Shown: positions 3,794-47,181 of the stretch, piece after piece
Layout of the letters: each line of letters begins with the position of its first letter
Numbering within the stretch: the first letter of the stretch is position 1
NCBI RefSeq assembly: GCF_003583725.1
Contig: NZ_QXTF01000001.1
Span: 868,001 to 932,000 of the forward strand
DNA: 64,000 bases
Source of the DNA: Sphingomonas edaphi
GTDB taxonomy: Bacteria; Pseudomonadota; Alphaproteobacteria; Sphingomonadales; Sphingomonadaceae
Direction of reading: 5' to 3'
Program-made: the position numbers and the translations under genes
The notes under the pieces: generated by a model
The model's database searches: none
Seen by the model: the letters and a program-made list of their open reading frames with translations, nothing else
Told to the model about the DNA's origin: nothing

Positions 3794-5038
3794 ATGACCT
3801 CGCTCGATACCCGGCAAAAGCTCGCGATCCTTGCGGATGCCGCCAAATATGACGCGTCTTGCGCGTCGTCGGGGACGGTGAAACGGGACAGCAGGGGTGG
3901 CAACGGCGTCGGGTCCACAGAAAGTATGGGCATCTGCCACGCTTACGCGCCGGATGGCCGTTGCATTTCGCTCCTTAAAATTCTGCTAACCAACAGTTGC
4001 ATTTTCGACTGCCATTATTGCATCAATCGCAAAAGTTCGAACGTCCGCCGGGCGCGTTTCACGACGGACGAAGTCGTCCAGGTGACGCTCGCTTTCTACA
4101 AGCGCAACTACATTGAGGGTTTGTTCCTTTCTTCAGGGATCATCCGCTCGTCGAACTATACGATGGAGCAGCTGGTCGAAGTGGCGCGCAGCCTCCGCGA
4201 GGATCATGATTTTCGGGGCTATATCCATCTGAAAACCATTCCCGATGCCGATCCCGGATTGGTCAGACTGGCGGGCCTTCATGCCGACCGGGTCTCAATA
4301 AATGTCGAGCTCCCGACGCAGGACGGCCTTACGCGACTAGCGCCCGAAAAGGATTCCGGGCGCATCGAGGGCGCAATGCGCGACATGAAAGGCGCGATCG
4401 AGGATGGCTGCGACGCCAGGCGCAAATATCGAAGCGCGCCTAAATTCGCGCCAGCCGGACAATCGACCCAGATGATCGTCGGTGCCGATGCCGCCAATGA
4501 CCGCGACATCGTCCGGCGCGCCAGCCACCTGTATGACCGCTTCTCGCTGCGCCGCGTCTATTATTCCGCCTTTTCCCCCATCCCTTCGCCCAGTGCCGTT
4601 CTGCCGCTGAAACGGCCGCCGTTGATGCGCGAGCATCGGTTGTATCAGTCCGATTGGCTGATGCGATTTTACGGGTTCAAGCCCTCTGAAGTCGCCAGCG
4701 CGACGGACGACCTGGGGATGCTCCCCCTCGATATCGACCCAAAGCTGGCGTGGGCCCTGAAATTTCGGGAGTCTTTCCCCGTCGACGTTAATCGGGCTCC
4801 TCGAGAGTTGCTACTGCGCGTCCCGGGTTTTGGAACGAAGGCGGTGAACCGCATCATTTCCTCGCGACGCTGGCGAAAGCTCGGCCTTGACGACATATCG
4901 CGGCTAACCCTGTCGGTAGCCAAGGTGCGGCCCTTCATCATCACGACCGATTGGCGACCGACATTGCTGACAGACTGCGCCGATTTGCGATCGCTTGTCG
5001 CGCCCAAGGCCGAACAATTGGACCTGTTCGCTTCCTGA
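3794..5038 (+). CDS. Putative DNA modification/repair radical SAM protein
   Basis: 414 residues. A radical SAM core carries the 4Fe-4S motif C-x3-C-x2-C (SCIFDCHYCINRKS) about residue 70, followed by a TIM-barrel-like region. Near 350 is a helix-hairpin-helix motif (RVPGFGTKAVNRIISSR), which suggests DNA binding. This matches the family described as putative DNA modification/repair radical SAM proteins (TIGR03916 type), regularly found beside a UdgX/TIGR03915 protein, as here at 5597. The chemistry on DNA is unknown. The gene opens a three-gene plus-strand operon and sits directly behind a perfect SOS box at 3777-3791. Confidence 0.88.
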   Translation: MTSLDTRQKLAILADAAKYDASCASSGTVKRDSRGGNGVGSTESMGICHAYAPDGRCISLLKILLTNSCIFDCHYCINRKSSNVRRARFTTDEVVQVTLAFYKRNYIEGLFLSSGIIRSSNYTMEQLVEVARSLREDHDFRGYIHLKTIPDADPGLVRLAGLHADRVSINVELPTQDGLTRLAPEKDSGRIEGAMRDMKGAIEDGCDARRKYRSAPKFAPAGQSTQMIVGADAANDRDIVRRASHLYDRFSLRRVYYSAFSPIPSPSAVLPLKRPPLMREHRLYQSDWLMRFYGFKPSEVASATDDLGMLPLDIDPKLAWALKFRESFPVDVNRAPRELLLRVPGFGTKAVNRIISSRRWRKLGLDDISRLTLSVAKVRPFIITTDWRPTLLTDCADLRSLVAPKAEQLDLFAS

Positions 5039-5072: not shown

Positions 5073-5582
5073 ATGGCGACGGATATTTTCGATCGTTTGA
5101 AACAGGATCACGACAAGCATCGTCAGCTGATCGATGCAATTAAGGAAACGACCGGCGCGAGCGACGACCGCAAGGCGCTTTTCGAGGAATTCAAGACCGA
5201 CGCAATGGCCCATGCCGCCGCCGAGGAAGGGACGCTATACGTGGCGATGATGGAAGATCCGGAGATCCGACAGGACGCTCAGCACAGTGTGAAGGAACAT
5301 GCCGACATCGGCATGCTTTTCGTTGAGTTGGACGAAATGGAAATGGGTTCGTCTGGCTGGCTAAACAAATTCAACAGCCTTGCGGAAGAATATACCCACC
5401 ACATTGATGAGGAAGAGGAAGAGAAGTTTCCGAAAGCTCGCGAGGAACTGCGCGAGGATTTGGCAGTCGAACTGAAGACGGCGTTTGAGGATCGCAAGCC
5501 AATCGAGGTCGCACGGGTGCGGGAAGGCGCGGACGTCGACGAGATCAAACATGCAATCGAAGAGGAAGAGGGCGCCAAATAG
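5073..5582 (+). CDS. Hemerythrin HHE domain protein
   Basis: 169 residues, almost all helical and very acidic. It is started at ATG 5073 behind a strong GAGGAGG site. An upstream in-frame extension to 4995 would run into the previous gene and adds nothing conserved. HHE-type ligands are visible: DHDKHRQ near residue 12, HAAAEE near 47, HSVKEH near 70 and THHIDEEEEE near 107. Hemerythrin-like four-helix bundles bind a di-iron centre that senses or carries oxygen, NO or redox signals. No signal peptide, so cytoplasmic. It lies between two DNA-repair genes with gaps of 34 and 14 bases, so it is probably co-regulated with them. Confidence 0.88.
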   Translation: MATDIFDRLKQDHDKHRQLIDAIKETTGASDDRKALFEEFKTDAMAHAAAEEGTLYVAMMEDPEIRQDAQHSVKEHADIGMLFVELDEMEMGSSGWLNKFNSLAEEYTHHIDEEEEEKFPKAREELREDLAVELKTAFEDRKPIEVARVREGADVDEIKHAIEEEEGAK

Positions 5583-42246: not shown

Positions 42247-42789
42247 TTACTTGCCGACCGTTTCGATGGTCAGCCGGTCGTTGGTGAACACACAGACTTC
42301 GGCTGCGATGGCCATCGCACGCTTTGCCAACACTTCGGGATCGGGCTCATATTCGCTAAGCGCGCGGGCGGCGGCGAGCGCGTAATTTCCGCCCGAGCCG
42401 ATCGCGGCGATCCCGCCTTCGGGTTCAAGCACGTCTCCGTTCCCTGTCAGGATCAGCATCGTGTCCTTGTCGGCGACGATCATCATCGCTTCGAGGTTGC
42501 GTAGATATTTATCGGTCCGCCAGTCCTTCGCCAGTTCGACCGCCGCGCGCAGCAACTGGCCGCGCGATGCTTCCAGCTTCTTTTCGAGCCGTTCGAAAAG
42601 AGTGAAGGCGTCAGCTGTCGCGCCGGCAAAGCCGCCGATGACGCTGCCGTCGCTGCCCAGCCGCCGGACCTTTTTCGCATTAGGCTTGATTACGGTATTG
42701 CCGAGGCTGACCTGCCCATCGCCGGCGATCACCGTCTTGCCGTCCTTCTTCACCCCCAGGATGGTGGTGCCGTGATACTGTTCCAACAT
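42247..42789 (-). CDS. hslV: ATP-dependent protease subunit HslV
   Basis: 180 residues from ATG 42789 (AGCGGGAG upstream); a 32-residue longer frame is not needed. The catalytic Thr follows a seven-residue propeptide ([12 protein letters not shown]), then [11 protein letters not shown]. It is the proteasome-like peptidase of HslUV. The pair is normally heat-shock induced; a weak RpoH-like sequence lies upstream (42816-42844). A mobile element is inserted beyond, 268 bases upstream of the start. Confidence 0.96.
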
Positions 42790-42815
42790 AAACTCCCGCT
42801 CGGGTTCGATGCGGG

Positions 42816-42844
42816 ATGTGGGAAGGCCGCCACAAGTGCGCAAG
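42816..42844 (-). promoter_or_regulatory. Possible heat-shock (RpoH-type) promoter of hslV
   Basis: Minus strand CTTGCG, 16 bases, CCCACAT, ending 27 bases before the hslV ATG. It partly matches the RpoH consensus CTTGAA and CCCCATNT. The match is weak; the gene's known regulation makes it plausible. Confidence 0.3.
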
Positions 42845-43049
42845 CCGGGAATCCTCCCCCAGCCTATCGCTGCACGCCCTCCCATGGCCGGATTCCGGTT
42901 ATGCCGGACTGCGACTTTGAGCCGGCTTGGTTAGCTAAGTCCTCGCGCGCGAATGATTAGTGGACTAAAATCCCGACATGTACTGCACCGATTAAATTGA
43001 TACGATCCTTTTTGGTGTCCAACGGCATAGATTTTTGAACCTGTTCTGA
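42845..43049. other. Intergenic region between hslV and the mobile element
   Basis: No gene is seen. The second half becomes AT-rich. Before the insertion this was one divergent intergenic region, about 319 bases between hslV and the M20 peptidase gene. Confidence 0.6.
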
Positions 43050-43057
43050 TGGTAGAC
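43050..43057 (+). repeat. Left copy of the 8-bp target-site duplication (TGGTAGAC)
   Basis: TGGTAGAC directly abuts the left inverted repeat and recurs at 45789-45796 right after the right inverted repeat. Eight-base duplications are standard for the IS1595 family. Confidence 0.92.
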
Positions 43058-43082
43058 GGCAATTATATACTTGACAAAGCAG
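43058..43082 (+). repeat. Left terminal inverted repeat of the IS1595-type element
   Basis: 25 bases. It matches the reverse complement of 45764-45788 at 24 positions. The single difference is T at 43071, where the other end has G. That T completes a consensus TTGACA -35 box. Confidence 0.92.
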
Positions 43083-43107
43083 CGTTGAAATCTATGGTGT
43101 TTGTCAA
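43071..43107 (+). promoter_or_regulatory. Transposase promoter partly inside the left inverted repeat, with dyad
   Basis: TTGACA (43071-43076), 16 bases, TATGGT (43093-43098) gives a good sigma-70-type promoter aimed at the transposase. TTGACAAA (43071-43078) and TTTGTCAA (43100-43107) form a perfect 8-bp inverted repeat framing the promoter, which could be an operator or a binding site for the transposase itself. Promoter strength is not known. Confidence 0.6.
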
Positions 43108-43119
43108 CGGAGAGACGCA

Positions 43120-44025
43120 ATGGACATTACCGCCCCCCGCTTCACCAATGAGGATAGCGCCCGCGAGCATCTTGAAGCGCTACGCTGGCCGGATGGTGCA
43201 GAGTGTCCGCATTGCGGCCTCATTGACGCCACCAAGCTGACCGGCTCGCATCACCGTCCCGGCCTCTACCAGTGCAACTCCTGTCGCGAACAGTTCACCG
43301 TCACCGTAGGCACCGTGTTCGAGCGCTCCAAGGTCGGGCTGCATAAATGGTTGCTCGCTACGCATCTGCTTTGCGCCTCCAAGAAGGGCATGAGCGCCAA
43401 GCAGATCGAACGTATGCTTGGTGTAACCTACAAAACCGCTTGGTTCATGTGCCACCGCATCCGCGAGGCCATGAAGGACGATGGTTCACCCCTAGGCGGC
43501 TCTGGCCAGATCGTTGAAGCCGACGAAGCATTTGTTGGTGGCAAGAAGGGCAATCGCCTTTCCGGTAAGACAGCTCCTGCGAAGAAGGTCGTTGCACTAA
43601 TTGAGCGCGACGGTCGCGCCCGCTCGTTCCACGTTGCCAACCTCCATGCCAACAACCTTCGCAGCGCGCTCGTGACCAACGTTGACCGCCAGTCCTACCT
43701 CATGACCGACGAAGCCTACGCATACCGCCTCGTCGGCAAAGAGTTCGCGATGCATGGCCGCGTTCTTCACAGCATCCGCGAGTTCGCCAAGGCGGGCGGC
43801 GTCGTTCACTCCAACACCGCAGAGAACTTCTTTTCCATCCTCAAGCGTGGCGTGATTGGCACCTACCATCACTGGAGCGCCGCCCACATGCACCGCTATC
43901 TGGCCGAGTTTGACTTCCGCTACTCGACCAAGGGCAGCAATGATTTCGAGCGCTCCGAAATCTGCCTCAAGAACATCGCTGGCAAGCGCCTCACCTATCG
44001 GCGGGCTAATCCGCTCGCAGCCTGA
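43120..44025 (+). CDS. IS1595 family transposase
   Basis: 301 residues behind GGAGAG. An N-terminal zinc ribbon C29-x2-C32 ... C52-x2-C55 (ECPHCG, YQCNSC) is followed by helix-turn-helix-like KQIERMLGVTYKTAWFMCHRIREAM and an ISXO2-like DDE domain: EADEAFVGGK near 137, LMTDEAYAY near 193 and HSNTAENFFSILKRGV near 228. It cuts and joins the element's ends. The reading frame is intact. No overlap with cargo; the first cargo stop lies 47 bases on. Confidence 0.93.
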   Translation: MDITAPRFTNEDSAREHLEALRWPDGAECPHCGLIDATKLTGSHHRPGLYQCNSCREQFTVTVGTVFERSKVGLHKWLLATHLLCASKKGMSAKQIERMLGVTYKTAWFMCHRIREAMKDDGSPLGGSGQIVEADEAFVGGKKGNRLSGKTAPAKKVVALIERDGRARSFHVANLHANNLRSALVTNVDRQSYLMTDEAYAYRLVGKEFAMHGRVLHSIREFAKAGGVVHSNTAENFFSILKRGVIGTYHHWSAAHMHRYLAEFDFRYSTKGSNDFERSEICLKNIAGKRLTYRRANPLAA

Positions 44026-44072
44026 TTACTACAAGGCCCCGAACGCTCTGGGTGAGCGCCGCAAGCGCTGGA

Positions 44073-44294
44073 CTAGTTAACGCGAGCGTCTTCGGCTTGA
44101 TCTATCTGATAGTTGAAGCTGTAGCGCGTCTGCCTGCCAGCTTTGTCCAAATCAAAAGGGAGCTGCTGTTGGTCGTCCTCGCGTGGCGGCAGCTCCAACG
44201 TTGGGCGATTGGCGTTCATCCAAGCGGCGATAACGAAGCCCACAATGGCTACCACCACTCCAATAAGAGCGGGCGCTATCAGGCCAAAGTCCAT
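44073..44294 (-). CDS. Cargo: small single-pass membrane protein
   Basis: 73 residues. One N-terminal helix (LIAPALIGVVVAIVGFVIAAWM) and a polar tail (LPPREDDQQQLPFDLDKAG). The start directly follows the stop of the next minus-strand gene (TAAATG), so the two are translated together. No homologue recognised. Lies inside the IS1595-type element. Confidence 0.65.
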   Translation of the reverse strand: MDFGLIAPALIGVVVAIVGFVIAAWMNANRPTLELPPREDDQQQLPFDLDKAGRQTRYSFNYQIDQAEDARVN

Positions 44295-44537
44295 TTATCT
44301 CTCCGCATCCAGCGACTTAAGAAAGAACGCTCCAGCGTATATAAGCAATCCGGCCGCCAAAAACCATCCGCCCGTAGCAGGAGCAATCCGGCCATCTGCA
44401 TAAGATTGCACGGCTGCCGCTGCGATAAGACCCGCGCCTAGATTGGACGCAATGCCCGCAAGCATTTTCTTTGTTTCGTTCCGCCGTAAAACGGCAGTCC
44501 GATACTCCTCTTCGGAATGATAAACTTTCCCCGCCAT
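44295..44537 (-). CDS. Cargo: small two-helix membrane protein
   Basis: 80 residues from ATG 44537; a TTG two codons earlier is possible. A charged N-terminal segment (KVYHSEEEYRTAVLRRNETKK) precedes two hydrophobic helices (ASNLGAGLIAAAAVQSY; GGWFLAAGLLIYAGAFFL). Paired with the 73-residue membrane protein downstream with no gap. Function unknown; two small membrane partners in a row could act as a pair. Confidence 0.65.
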   Translation of the reverse strand: MAGKVYHSEEEYRTAVLRRNETKKMLAGIASNLGAGLIAAAAVQSYADGRIAPATGGWFLAAGLLIYAGAFFLKSLDAER

Positions 44538-44613
44538 TGGCAAGAACTGGACTCATTACTAATCGGCGTCAATCATTACGCCGCCGAATCGCCGTACTCC
44601 AGTGGAGGGACTA

Positions 44614-44880
44614 ATGGCGGCCTATCCAGTTAAGTGCCACACGCCTGATAACTTAGACTTGGACCGGCGAATACAGGGACTTGGAGGCGATTGGGGATGG
44701 AAGCCAATCGACCGCATCATTCAGATGATCGAGGGCGGTGACTTATTCTGGGTTTCTGTCGGCGGCAGGGGCGTGGCGATAATTGTGAAATCTCGAAACG
44801 GCAGAAAATATCTGACGACTTTCGGCGACGATCATCCCCCAAACAACCTCCTTAGCCTTCCGAAATGCCCGTCACCGTAG
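44614..44880 (+). CDS. Cargo: DUF3892 domain protein
   Basis: 88 residues from ATG 44614 with GGAGGG four bases upstream. The pattern AAYPVKCHTPDNLDLDRRIQ, WKPIDRIIQMIEGGDLFWV, then RNGRKYLTTFGDDHPPNNLLSLPKCP matches DUF3892, a small fold of unknown function often carried by mobile elements and found near defence or accessory genes. Its end overlaps the convergent 56-residue gene by 29 bases. Confidence 0.8.
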   Translation: MAAYPVKCHTPDNLDLDRRIQGLGGDWGWKPIDRIIQMIEGGDLFWVSVGGRGVAIIVKSRNGRKYLTTFGDDHPPNNLLSLPKCPSP

Positions 44881-45022
44881 CGACAGGGGAAGCAAAAGAT
44901 TCTGGCTGCATTGCCCATGCAAGCGCTTGTTGCGCTGCGTAGAGGCCGGCGTGTTGAAAAGGGTCAGGGTAAGCAGCCAGACGCGCCTCTATGCGCCGCA
45001 ACTCAGCTTGGATGTGCTTCAT
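44852..45022 (-). CDS. Cargo: 56-residue hypothetical protein
   Basis: Start ATG 45022 behind GGAGG (five bases); an ATG at 45049 overlapping the preceding stop (ATGA) is the alternative and would add nine residues. Helical: MKHIQAELRRIEARLAAYPD, then HAGLYAAQQALAWAMQP. No domain recognised. Second of two short minus-strand genes starting near 45168. Confidence 0.6.
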   Translation of the reverse strand: MKHIQAELRRIEARLAAYPDPFQHAGLYAAQQALAWAMQPESFASPVATVTGISEG

Positions 45023-45045
45023 AAGGCCTCCGCTTTCGTGGTTCG

Positions 45046-45168
45046 TCATTCGCTCTTGTGGTTTGACTCGGTAGGCGCGGCCTTCTTGTCGACCTTGTGC
45101 GGCCTTGGCTTGCTCGCCAGCATCCGCCGCAGCACTTCGTCTTCCTGCTTTTGATTGGTGTCGGTCAT
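45046..45168 (-). CDS. Cargo: 40-residue hypothetical protein
   Basis: A very short but coherent frame: MTDTNQKQEDEVLRRML, then ASKPRPHKVDKKAAP. Short proteins with an EDEVLRRML-KP-PHK pattern are, from memory, widespread and unnamed in alphaproteobacteria. Its start codon shares bases with the start of the divergent 169-residue gene (bases 45166-45169 read CATG), and its stop overlaps the ATG at 45049. Function unknown. Confidence 0.6.
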   Translation of the reverse strand: MTDTNQKQEDEVLRRMLASKPRPHKVDKKAAPTESNHKSE

Positions 45169-45676
45169 GGATGAAAATCGCCTCCTGCCCAAAAGATACG
45201 CTGAGGCGCTTGGTTATTCCACACTTGCCTGGGCCTTGCTGGAAACAGGCCTAGACATCCTTGTCGCAATTACTTTCCACCGCTTCGACGGCAATCAAAG
45301 CCATCCGGAGATCCCTAGAAGCCTGTCCCGAAAGATCGGCTACCTTAAAGATATTGCGAAGCTCAGGCCGGGGCATCCTTGGGCCAATCGCATCCTTGCT
45401 ATCGCCGCCACCGCCGGAGAGCTTAGCGACGAACGCCACCACGTTACACACGGCGTCGCAACCGGCGGCTTCGACGGGGAATCCACCTACGTCTTTCGGC
45501 TATTGTATGAGAAAACCATGCACCAGCCGCTTGAGAGGCCGGTTTCGGTAACGCAATTGCGAGAACTGTCCGCCAAAACACGGGATGCAGCTATCGCCGC
45601 ATTAGACCTAGCGCACGAGATGGTTGATGCGATCAAAGATGTGGACAACGATCCTGTCGGCAAGGCTGGCCGCTGA
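45167..45676 (+). CDS. Cargo: 169-residue helical hypothetical protein
   Basis: From ATG 45167. Mostly alpha-helical: YAEALGYSTLAWALLETGLD, SLSRKIGYLKDIAKLRPGHPWA, AATAGELSDERHHVTHGVA, then QLRELSAKTRDAAIAALDLAHEM. The ERHHVTHG segment is the most distinctive; similar helical proteins occur as unannotated cargo in mobile elements. No signal peptide. It starts back to back with the 40-residue gene, so they share a control region. Confidence 0.7.
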   Translation: MDENRLLPKRYAEALGYSTLAWALLETGLDILVAITFHRFDGNQSHPEIPRSLSRKIGYLKDIAKLRPGHPWANRILAIAATAGELSDERHHVTHGVATGGFDGESTYVFRLLYEKTMHQPLERPVSVTQLRELSAKTRDAAIAALDLAHEMVDAIKDVDNDPVGKAGR

Positions 45677-45775
45677 CTCAGGACTAAATTCCCACTCCCA
45701 AAGCTGGGCGCGAACCCACTCCTTTACCTCATCGGTTAGGGCGTCATGGCCTTGAAGAGTGCTCTGCTTTGTCAC
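45608..45775 (-). CDS. Cargo: doubtful 55-residue frame starting inside the right inverted repeat
   Basis: GTG 45775 lies within the right inverted repeat and the frame runs DALTDEVKEWVRAQLWEWEF, SPESAASLADRIVVHIFDRI. Its composition is protein-like, with amphipathic helices. It overlaps the end of the 169-residue gene antisense by 69 bases. No ribosome-binding site is seen, so it may be a remnant. Confidence 0.3.
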   Translation of the reverse strand: MTKQSTLQGHDALTDEVKEWVRAQLWEWEFSPESAASLADRIVVHIFDRINHLVR

Positions 45776-45788
45776 GTATATAATTGCC
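45764..45788 (-). repeat. Right terminal inverted repeat of the IS1595-type element
   Basis: Reverse complement matches the left end (43058-43082) at 24 of 25 positions. The outer end GGCAATTATATAC abuts the right target duplication. Confidence 0.92.
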
Positions 45789-45796
45789 TGGTAGAC
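45789..45796 (+). repeat. Right copy of the 8-bp target-site duplication (TGGTAGAC)
   Basis: Identical to 43050-43057. Removing the element and one copy restores a continuous hslV-M20 intergenic region. Confidence 0.92.
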
Positions 45797-45855
45797 GAGG
45801 TTCTTGTGGCGTGCGATGCCTAAAGCCGAAGTACCGCTACCCGAAGGAACCCCGC

Positions 45856-47181
45856 TTGCTGTTCGATCGACTGGCCGTTTGCCTGCCCCTCGCCCTGCTC
45901 ATCCTGCCGGTTCCTGCCCAGGCACAATTGTCCCGCAGCGAAAGCAGCATGATCGCCCATATCGATCGTGAGCAGCAGAGGACGGTCGCGATGCTCGAAA
46001 CGTGGGTCAACCAGAACAGCGGGTCGCAGAATATCGACGGCGTAACCAAGGTTGGCGAGATGCTCCGCAATGAGCTGGAACCGCTGGGTTTCAAGGTCGA
46101 CTGGGTCGACATGCGGTCGACCGGCCGCGGAGGTCACATCGTCGCCCGCCATCCGGGCAAGGCGGGCAACAAGCGCCTTCTGCTCATTGGCCATCTCGAC
46201 ACAGTGTTCGAACCCGACAGCCCGTTCCAGCGCTGGACCCGCGAGGGCGACAAGGGCGAGGGTCCGGGCGCGGGTGACAACAAGGGCGGCATGGCGGTAA
46301 TGATTGCAGCGCTCCGTGCCATGCGGGCAGCGGGGACACTTAAAAACGCCAATATCGAAATTGTACTGACCGGCGACGAGGAGGATAGCGGCAACCCGAT
46401 CGACGTCGCCCGCCGCGACTTGATCGCGGCTGGCAAGCGCGCCGACATCGCGCTTGATTTCGAAGGGTTGAGCCAAGTGGTTGAAAATGGCGCGCTGGTC
46501 GACATGGGATCAATCGCCCGGCGCAGTTCGGGAAGCTGGACGGTGACGGTCACCGCACAGGGCGGCCATTCCAGCGGCATCTTCTCCAGCGCAGCGGGCA
46601 ACGGCGCGATCTACGAGCTAGCGCGGATCATCGACACATTCCGACGCGAGTTACCAGAAGACAAACTGACCTTCAACGTCGGTCTGGTCGGTGGCGGCGA
46701 CACCGCAAAGCTGGATGAAGGACGCATCCGACTGAACGCAACCGGCAAGACCAACATCATAGCCTCGATCGCAGTCGCACGGGGGGACCTGCGCGCGATC
46801 AGCGAGGAGCAGATCCAGCGGACCCAGAACAAGATGAAGGCCATCGTCGGCCGCTCGCTGCACGGCGCGAAGGCCGAAATCATATTCGACACCGGCGGCT
46901 ATCCGCCGATGGCACCAACCGCGGGCAATGCGGCGTTATTGGCCAAACTCAATCGCATCAATGCCGACCTGCGCCTGCCCGCCATGGGCGCACTCGATCC
47001 GCTGAAGCGCGGAGCGGCAGACATCAGCTTCGTTGCCAAGGACGTCGACGGGATCAACGGGCTGGGTCCGGCGAGTACCGGCGACCATGCGCCGGGTGAA
47101 GCGGTCAACATTCCCAGCATCTGGCGGCAGGCCAAGCGCGCCGCGATCCTGATGAGCCGTCTGGCCGCGGAAAAGCGATAG
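45856..47181 (+). CDS. M20 family metallopeptidase, exported
   Basis: 441 residues from TTG 45856, chosen because AAGGAA lies seven bases upstream and it gives a signal peptide (MLFDRLAVCLPLALLILPVPAQA). The frame runs further up into the target duplication without a signal. Metal and catalytic motifs: LIGHLDTVF near 110, GAGDNKGGMA near 140 and TGDEEDSGNP near 173, DFEGLS near 205, DHAPGEAVN near 415. It resembles carboxypeptidase G2 (glutamate carboxypeptidase), but the substrate is open. The insertion lies 67 bases upstream of this start and may disturb the promoter. Confidence 0.9.
   Translation: MLFDRLAVCLPLALLILPVPAQAQLSRSESSMIAHIDREQQRTVAMLETWVNQNSGSQNIDGVTKVGEMLRNELEPLGFKVDWVDMRSTGRGGHIVARHPGKAGNKRLLLIGHLDTVFEPDSPFQRWTREGDKGEGPGAGDNKGGMAVMIAALRAMRAAGTLKNANIEIVLTGDEEDSGNPIDVARRDLIAAGKRADIALDFEGLSQVVENGALVDMGSIARRSSGSWTVTVTAQGGHSSGIFSSAAGNGAIYELARIIDTFRRELPEDKLTFNVGLVGGGDTAKLDEGRIRLNATGKTNIIASIAVARGDLRAISEEQIQRTQNKMKAIVGRSLHGAKAEIIFDTGGYPPMAPTAGNAALLAKLNRINADLRLPAMGALDPLKRGAADISFVAKDVDGINGLGPASTGDHAPGEAVNIPSIWRQAKRAAILMSRLAAEKR

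Follow-up and report, generated by a model that had tools for sequence, protein, structure and literature searches.

The window analysed here is a 64,000-nt stretch of the Sphingomonas edaphi genome (contig NZ_QXTF01000001.1, positions 868,001–932,000), and its positions 43050–45796 are a complete IS1595-type insertion sequence (IS) with passenger genes. Among these are p40, a 40-codon gene that marks a lineage of such transposons, and, head-to-head with it, a partner gene for a likely HEPN-type protein, which related elements, as aligned, exchange at the overlapping start codons of the two genes. The features are as follows, with the basis of each assignment in brackets (ORF, open reading frame; HMM, hidden Markov model).

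43050..43057, no strand: left copy of the 8-bp target duplication TGGTAGAC (sequence)
43058..43082, no strand: left terminal inverted repeat, 25 bp, 24/25 to the right end (similar ends in other elements)
43071..43098, plus: promoter-like TTGACA-16-TATGGT, partly in the left end, 5' of the transposase (sequence scan)
43120..44025, plus: IS1595-family transposase, 301 aa (Pfam/NCBIfam matches, conserved residues)
44073..44294, minus: 73-aa membrane-type ORF, variable cargo (no Pfam family over cut-off)
44295..44543, minus: 82-aa membrane-type ORF with TTG start, variable cargo (no Pfam family over cut-off)
44614..44880, plus: 88-aa DUF3892 protein, variable cargo (Pfam PF13031, 5.5e-10; related ORF in L041b)
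44852..45049, minus: 65-aa ORF, its ATG overlapping the p40 stop as ATGA (sequence; related ORF in L041b)
45046..45168, minus: p40, apparent constant 40-aa protein, EDEVLRRML..KPxPHK (searches, codon-position test)
45166..45169, no strand: CATG, overlapping start codons of p40 (minus) and partner (plus), left border of the exchange slot
45167..45676, plus: partner gene, 169 aa, likely HEPN-type, R-x4-H as RHHVTH (motif, HMM, model)
45608..45775, minus: 55-aa ORF at the right end, GTG start (position as the 'ITPEMIEAG' ORF of many relatives)
45764..45788, no strand: right terminal inverted repeat (sequence)
45789..45796, no strand: right copy of the 8-bp duplication TGGTAGAC (sequence)

An earlier note on this DNA had reported an intact transposase between 25-bp inverted ends with one mismatch, flanked by an exact 8-bp duplication, and all of these were borne out. 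The ends (43058–43082 and 45764–45788) are complementary at 24 of 25 positions and lie directly inside the two copies of TGGTAGAC; the transposase frame (43120–44025) is open and matches Pfam DDE_Tnp_IS1595 (1.8e-29), the IS1595 zinc ribbon (1.1e-13) and NCBIfam NF033547 (3.8e-52). Residues D135, D197, E235 and K242, which we take to be catalytic, and C29, C32, C52 and C55, presumably the zinc cysteines, are kept in 125–127 of 127 transposases. The DDE domain and zinc ribbon, the D/D/E/K residues and cysteines, and the inverted repeats with an 8-bp duplication place the element in the IS1595 family, and the passenger genes between its ends place it among transporter IS. Duplications of 8 bp are given as a trait of the family in PMC8101967. 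The element is present once in its own genome, which also has a second IS1595 transposase (G000:C3:27347-27949, locus L186), where neither the ends nor p40 were detected.

As a transposase promoter the TTGACA-16-TATGGT site is no more than suggestive, with one such site seen against 1.2 expected in shuffles. Above cut-off, Pfam and NCBIfam matched only the transposase and DUF3892 among eight window ORFs. From the small genes listed earlier, the membrane pair, the DUF3892 gene and the 40- and 169-residue proteins stood; the 65-aa ORF was absent from that list, and the protein listed with 56 residues has 55. Since the p40 stop overlaps the start of the 65-aa ORF, both may be translated together on the minus strand.

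The p40 lineage

p40 is a marker for a lineage of transposons. When the whole element was searched as DNA against 71 genus genomes, 24 matched, its own included, and besides the transposase a short block within p40 recurred. The earlier claim of an IS1595 element with duplication and passengers found support in relatives with similar ends: 22 further elements of 1.9–2.8 kb, with exact 8-bp repeats, from the genus and family (contig-edge fragments were left out of the fetched loci), and 51 of 80 named p40 loci described below. Clustering showed a p40-type ORF in 32 of 33 elements, all but the distant L073, and the motif showed one in 16 of 16 genus elements found via their transposase (those with a full transposase frame), three of which (L041a, L054 and L055) have a divergent type. 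Searched with p40 alone, 199 family genomes gave 14 matches beyond the own genome, all 14 with an IS1595 transposase or a piece of one; a 29-row p40 profile matched 31 of the 199 genomes at 33 places, 25 of them within 2 kb of an NF033547 match and a further one next to a transposase that is truncated.

With p40 as the only query, a scan of 84,980 genomes yielded 102 relatives, of which the 80 in named records were kept, mostly from Alphaproteobacteria with a few from Betaproteobacteria. Some elements occur twice, once as a named and once as an unnamed locus (L036/L092 and L038/L100, for instance); counts out of 80 loci and, below, out of 70 rows refer to the named set, the latter with the window added. 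An IS1595 transposase lies within 3 kb on the opposite strand in 67 of the 80, on the other side in four, and is lacking in nine. Ends alike at 19 or more of 25 positions, with an exact 8-bp repeat, surround p40 in 51 loci, partly the same elements as the 22 above, and in four of the 51 the transposase frame overruns the element end. Some of the nine transposase-less loci end at contig edges; seven hold a partner ORF with R-x4-H, and the four that keep a right-end-like sequence look, for that reason, like decayed or cut elements. Loci L118, L145 and L151 are betaproteobacterial IS1595 elements with ends 23–25/25 alike and p40 present, in a different gene order that puts the transposase on the other side.

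On a quick tree of 127 transposases (88 with p40 and 39 without, near-copies and elements doubled under named and unnamed loci included), the p40 label needs 2 changes, compared with 33.6 in shuffles. Evenly drawn samples contained p40 at E ≤ 0.001 in 16 of 289 genomes of the class and 7 of 299 of the phylum, own included. A 46-aa p40 query had no match at E ≤ 1e-3 in 72,556 plasmid records, and PHROGs and Pfam offered no convincing family for p40. At L041 (5646–10588) two p40-type elements adjoin with a common duplication, AAGAGGCG, as if one had inserted at the edge of the other.

p40 looks like a protein-coding gene by its codon pattern. Across 60 non-redundant p40 cores (near-identical sequences dropped), entropy was 0.55, 0.52 and 1.38 at codon positions 1–3, single-change codons were synonymous in 82% of cases in the p40 frame and in 69% in the next best frame (on the other strand), and the p40 frame had no stop in 60 of 60 sequences, a result favoured by the picking of p40 loci by amino-acid pattern.

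The partner gene and its exchange at CATG

An ORF of at least 140 aa stands head-to-head with p40 in 69 of the 80 named loci. Where the p40 start could be located, it lies in CATG in 58 of 69 loci, a number somewhat inflated because the script favoured the CATG start among several candidates. From 50 of these 58 CATGs the partner-strand ATG opens at least 140 codons, compared with 20% of the 3,578 CATGs in the loci. For 44 non-redundant loci (near-identical sequences left out), mean column identity was 0.42–0.49 before CATG and 0.26–0.28 after it; within CATG it is 1.0 by construction, since loci lacking CATG were left out, as they were from the pairwise count. In that count, 454 of 646 homologies running through p40 stop within 4 bp of CATG and 19 extend more than 40 bp past it.

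Elements with transposases 96–99% identical carry unrelated or barely related partners, and only two of the 28 pairs whose transposases share at least 80% identity have partners alike at E < 1e-3. L102 and L110, for example, have transposases 99.1% identical, and the elements are 93.7% identical over positions 2–1661 (p40 start at 1659); beyond 1661, homology spans only 31 bp at the right end. The second example is a single insertion common to L079 (uncultured Sphingomonadaceae) and L085 (Sphingorhabdus sp. EL138), with the same duplication and 400-bp flanks 98 and 99% identical. There, homology ends at L079 position 5112 (p40 start at 5108) and picks up again 36 bp from the end of the element, so the partner was replaced in place, in this case by a distant relative. 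Two genomes have an unoccupied site that the joined flanks (708 bases) match, one at 82% over 1–708 and the other at 74% over 2–708. Taken together, these alignments demonstrate exchange of the gene in the slot that starts at CATG (slot B), in one case within an unchanged insertion.

The partner is likely a HEPN-type protein, of a kind seen in toxins that cleave RNA and in defences against phages and not proposed in the earlier note. When the 69 partners were aligned with the window protein (the p40 loci without a 140-aa partner ORF were left out), R-x4-H fell at one column in 54 of 70 rows and R[ND]x3H in 49 of 70. R[ND]x3H is found in 49 of the 69 partners as compared with 26 of 333 control ORFs (140–320 aa, same loci, outside the elements), kinship among the partners being retained in this count. 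The window motif, RHHVTH, fits the R-x4-6-H pattern of HEPN proteins, though R-x4-H alone is frequent by chance. An HMM seeded with the window protein grew to 46 of the 70 partners; its final version matched 2 of the 333 controls, and HMMs started instead from 15 random control ORFs recruited no partner. A profile of 40 of these 46 had as its best match among PDB sequences (E 0.018) ApeA, a bacterial antiviral defence protein of solved structure and presumably of HEPN type, over a stretch that ends on RNLIVH, an RNxxxH motif.

Structure models of the window partner (predicted local distance difference test, pLDDT, 88.5; predicted template modelling score, pTM, 0.83) and of the L102 partner (76.4 and 0.67) are both largely helical. 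In a second look with VIA, the HEPN toxin 7ae6 came second for the window model (Z 6.8, root-mean-square deviation 4.7, 113 aligned), and the L102 model matched 6m6u, 7ae6, 7bxo, 5yep, 3o10 and 6m6w at Z 6.8–7.3. Searches with the window partner gave one weak relative in 288 other genomes of the class (E 7.3e-4) and none in viral contigs, and PADLOC gave scattered weak matches to the 70 partners, one member each, with 0.0014 the best. At L141 the partner HMM also matches, at 1.8e-15, an ORF that lies outside the element (near position 4169 in reverse complement), so that another gene of likely HEPN type adjoins the insertion.

Variable cargo and insertion sites

The cargo had been taken earlier for one undescribed module. 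It is not one: the constant part consists only of p40 and the slot for its head-to-head partner. The DUF3892/65-aa pair recurs in one other of the 33 elements (L041b), and no ORF of the other elements resembled the membrane pair at E ≤ 1e-4; on this sequence comparison, the DUF3892 and membrane genes are variable extras and not the module. Among the 55 middle-slot (slot A) ORFs of p40 elements that were scanned, out of 65, DUF3892 occurred three times and HTH_37 twice, and PemK, SocA/Panacea, M78 peptidase and NYN also occurred. A family of minus-strand 'ITPEMIEAG' ORFs at the right end, grown from p40 elements, is present in 44 of 84 elements (a set that includes doubles and the p40-less L073) and in none of 23 p40-less elements; the 55-aa ORF of the window did not match it.

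The p40-less elements come from 40 transposase regions picked for absence of a p40 match, one of which, L225, does hold p40. Recognisable ends were found in 23 of the 40, and only L190 (1,166 bp) among these lacks a further 90-aa ORF; the cargo-bearing ones lie among loci L187–L224. The 35 cargo ORFs scanned from these include SocA/Panacea (two), DUF5343 (two), PemK, ParE, an N6 methylase/type IIG protein, P63C and Bro-N, which suggests that toxin-antitoxin-like or defence-like genes are common on IS1595 elements in this bacterial family.

Between hslV and the M20 gene (window 42247–47181) lie only the element and short spacers. The empty site predicted there for relatives was not found: in eight genus relatives the two genes are 1.8–3.7 kb apart with other ORFs between them, which leaves no empty site for the window's own insertion, and in 29 genus relatives no hslV lies within 1.5 kb of the M20 gene. 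Nor did the whole-element DNA search match the hslV–M20 interval of the eight, where cargo without a transposase would have spoken against a transposon. A p40 element and a glnK-type gene are 135–233 bp apart in 11 named loci (L076, L077, L079, L084, L085, L086, L089, L090, L099, L110 and L142). Both orientations and several duplication sequences occur among them, and L058, L059, L065 and L066 also have p40 elements on the glnK side, an apparent insertion hot spot. At L085, L079 and L088 the insertion splits a perfect palindrome at its centre, each arm being 10–12 bp long. A stem of at least 8 was present at 4 of 52 p40 sites, compared with 0.8% of controls, and at 0 of 23 p40-less sites; two of the four are one insertion, and for this reason we do not claim general hairpin targeting.

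Interpretation and rival explanations

We favour, with a probability of roughly 0.55, a modular transposon in which p40 is the constant controller of an interchangeable HEPN-type effector. Its plan reads left end, transposase, variable slot A, p40, variable slot B and right end, with slot B running from the CATG of p40 and partner to a point close to the right inverted repeat. Across the sequences compared, the anatomy of ends, duplication and transposase stands firm, as does the constancy of p40. Being of HEPN type, the partner would probably be a ribonuclease effector, predicted to target RNA and to harm the cell or an infecting phage. Less surely, p40 may restrain the partner, either as an antitoxin that contacts it or by way of the overlap between the two 5' ends (type I antisense control is considered only within this proposal), and the element may work as an addiction or defence module. 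The probable route of exchange would be recombination of one element with another, across the p40 block and the end that they have in common. The bolder version, that these elements form a new class of addiction or defence transposon in which a universal 40-residue protein controls interchangeable HEPN ribonuclease effectors plugged in at its start codon, so that a minimal transposon could renew its effector while its controller and genomic site stay unchanged, is tentative and falls well short of even odds.

A number of observations weigh against the modular proposal. As to the pairing, p40 and partner are divergent and do not form the two-gene operon of type II toxin-antitoxin systems, their head-to-head layout being unlike the usual one; one p40 facing unrelated partners speaks against tight co-evolution; 11 of the 80 loci have no partner ORF of 140 aa; and the L079 and L085 partners are distant relatives (25% identity over 153 aa) rather than unrelated. 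As to the motif, R-x4-H anywhere in the protein is common by chance (60 of 69 partners and 174 of 333 controls), and it is missing at the shared column in 16 of 70 partners, including that of the nearest relative, L036/L092; some of these 16 have R-x4-H further N-terminal, and others, such as L036/L092, have no R[ND]x3H at all. The window motif is itself RHHVTH, not RNxxxH, its second residue being unusual. As to the HEPN match, the ApeA stretch alone scored E 0.27 and designed four-helix proteins came next in the profile search (E 0.044); no Pfam HEPN family matches the window partner, and one of the 70 partners reached PF18735 (E 0.018). Foldseek found no PDB match at E ≤ 0.001 for either model, and in the VIA comparison a cilia protein ranked first for the window model (Z 7.8) and TBK1 (Z 9.0) stood above the HEPN entries for the L102 model. 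The HEPN fold scores of the models are suggestive only, as they fall within the range reached by common helical bundles.

The most serious alternative, which we nonetheless consider unlikely, is that p40 serves the transposon, for example by regulating transposition, and that slot B is a landing place for selfish or defence genes that do not interact with p40. That p40 follows the transposase tree while partners change would fit it, as would the other toxin-antitoxin or restriction genes on p40-less IS1595 elements and the PemK, SocA/Panacea and NYN genes in slot A of p40 elements. A mere landing place is harder to reconcile with the bias of partners to one motif class, 49 of 69, when an R[ND]x3H ORF of at least 90 aa is present in 4 of 23 end-bounded p40-less elements, or with the R-x4-H partner ORF kept at seven of the nine transposase-less p40 loci, though four of the nine look decayed or cut. 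It is very improbable that p40 is mere antisense of a conserved leader or promoter expressing slot B genes, its protein being incidental. In its favour, the conserved block stops exactly at the partner start codon; the codon pattern argues against it (0.55/0.52/1.38, 82% synonymous, no stop in 60 of 60, in loci picked by amino-acid pattern), as does the p40-type ORF in all 16 relatives found via the transposase.

A further possibility, to which we give little credence, is an ordinary transporter IS with passengers of unconnected function, where the likeness among partners comes from a common helical fold. IS1595 elements with passengers are already known as transporter IS (PMC8496243), and those elements have the same transposase domains, 8-bp duplications and passenger genes; the partner fold scores are also not decisive. 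The lineage in the window differs in its constant p40 and in an exchange slot that starts at an overlapping start codon. The constant p40, the overlapping start codons and the bias of partner motif and HMM relative to controls speak against passengers without a connected function. Among the matches listed in a search of the literature on IS1595 passengers, HEPN and toxin-antitoxin systems, which covered few subscription papers, none described p40 or this cargo layout.

The modular transposon that we prefer has partial counterparts among known systems. Tn3 transposons swap toxin-antitoxin modules at res, with one HEPN/MNT case, TnSod9 (PMC7157771); these are likewise small transposon-borne modules exchanged between transposons, although their exchange is at the res site and the partner in the window element changes beside a constant small gene. 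None of the 8 window ORFs scanned belongs to a resolvase family; res sites were not searched for. In Panacea (SocA-like) systems (PMC8832971), one antitoxin type faces many toxins, and the likeness is in one type facing many partners; p40, unlike them, has about 40 aa, no convincing Pfam match and a head-to-head rather than operonic arrangement. The HEPN/MNT toxins (PDB 7ae6, 6m6u, 5yep and 7bxo) and ApeA (PDB 9hxd) share with the partner model R-x4-H and a helical bundle, but sequence and fold scores are weak and the partner is far smaller than ApeA (593 aa). No nucleotidyltransferase family was found among the window and middle-slot ORFs scanned. Tn7-like transposons carry many defence genes, according to PMC8649781.

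If true, the modular proposal would reveal a way in which transposons of very small size retain cargo resembling toxin or defence genes and replace it with new, and it would account for a family of small proteins that neither Pfam nor PHROGs matches. Promiscuous antitoxins could be tested directly on the natural sets in which a single constant small protein faces many partners, and genomes that share an insertion but differ in the partner make exchange accessible to direct study.

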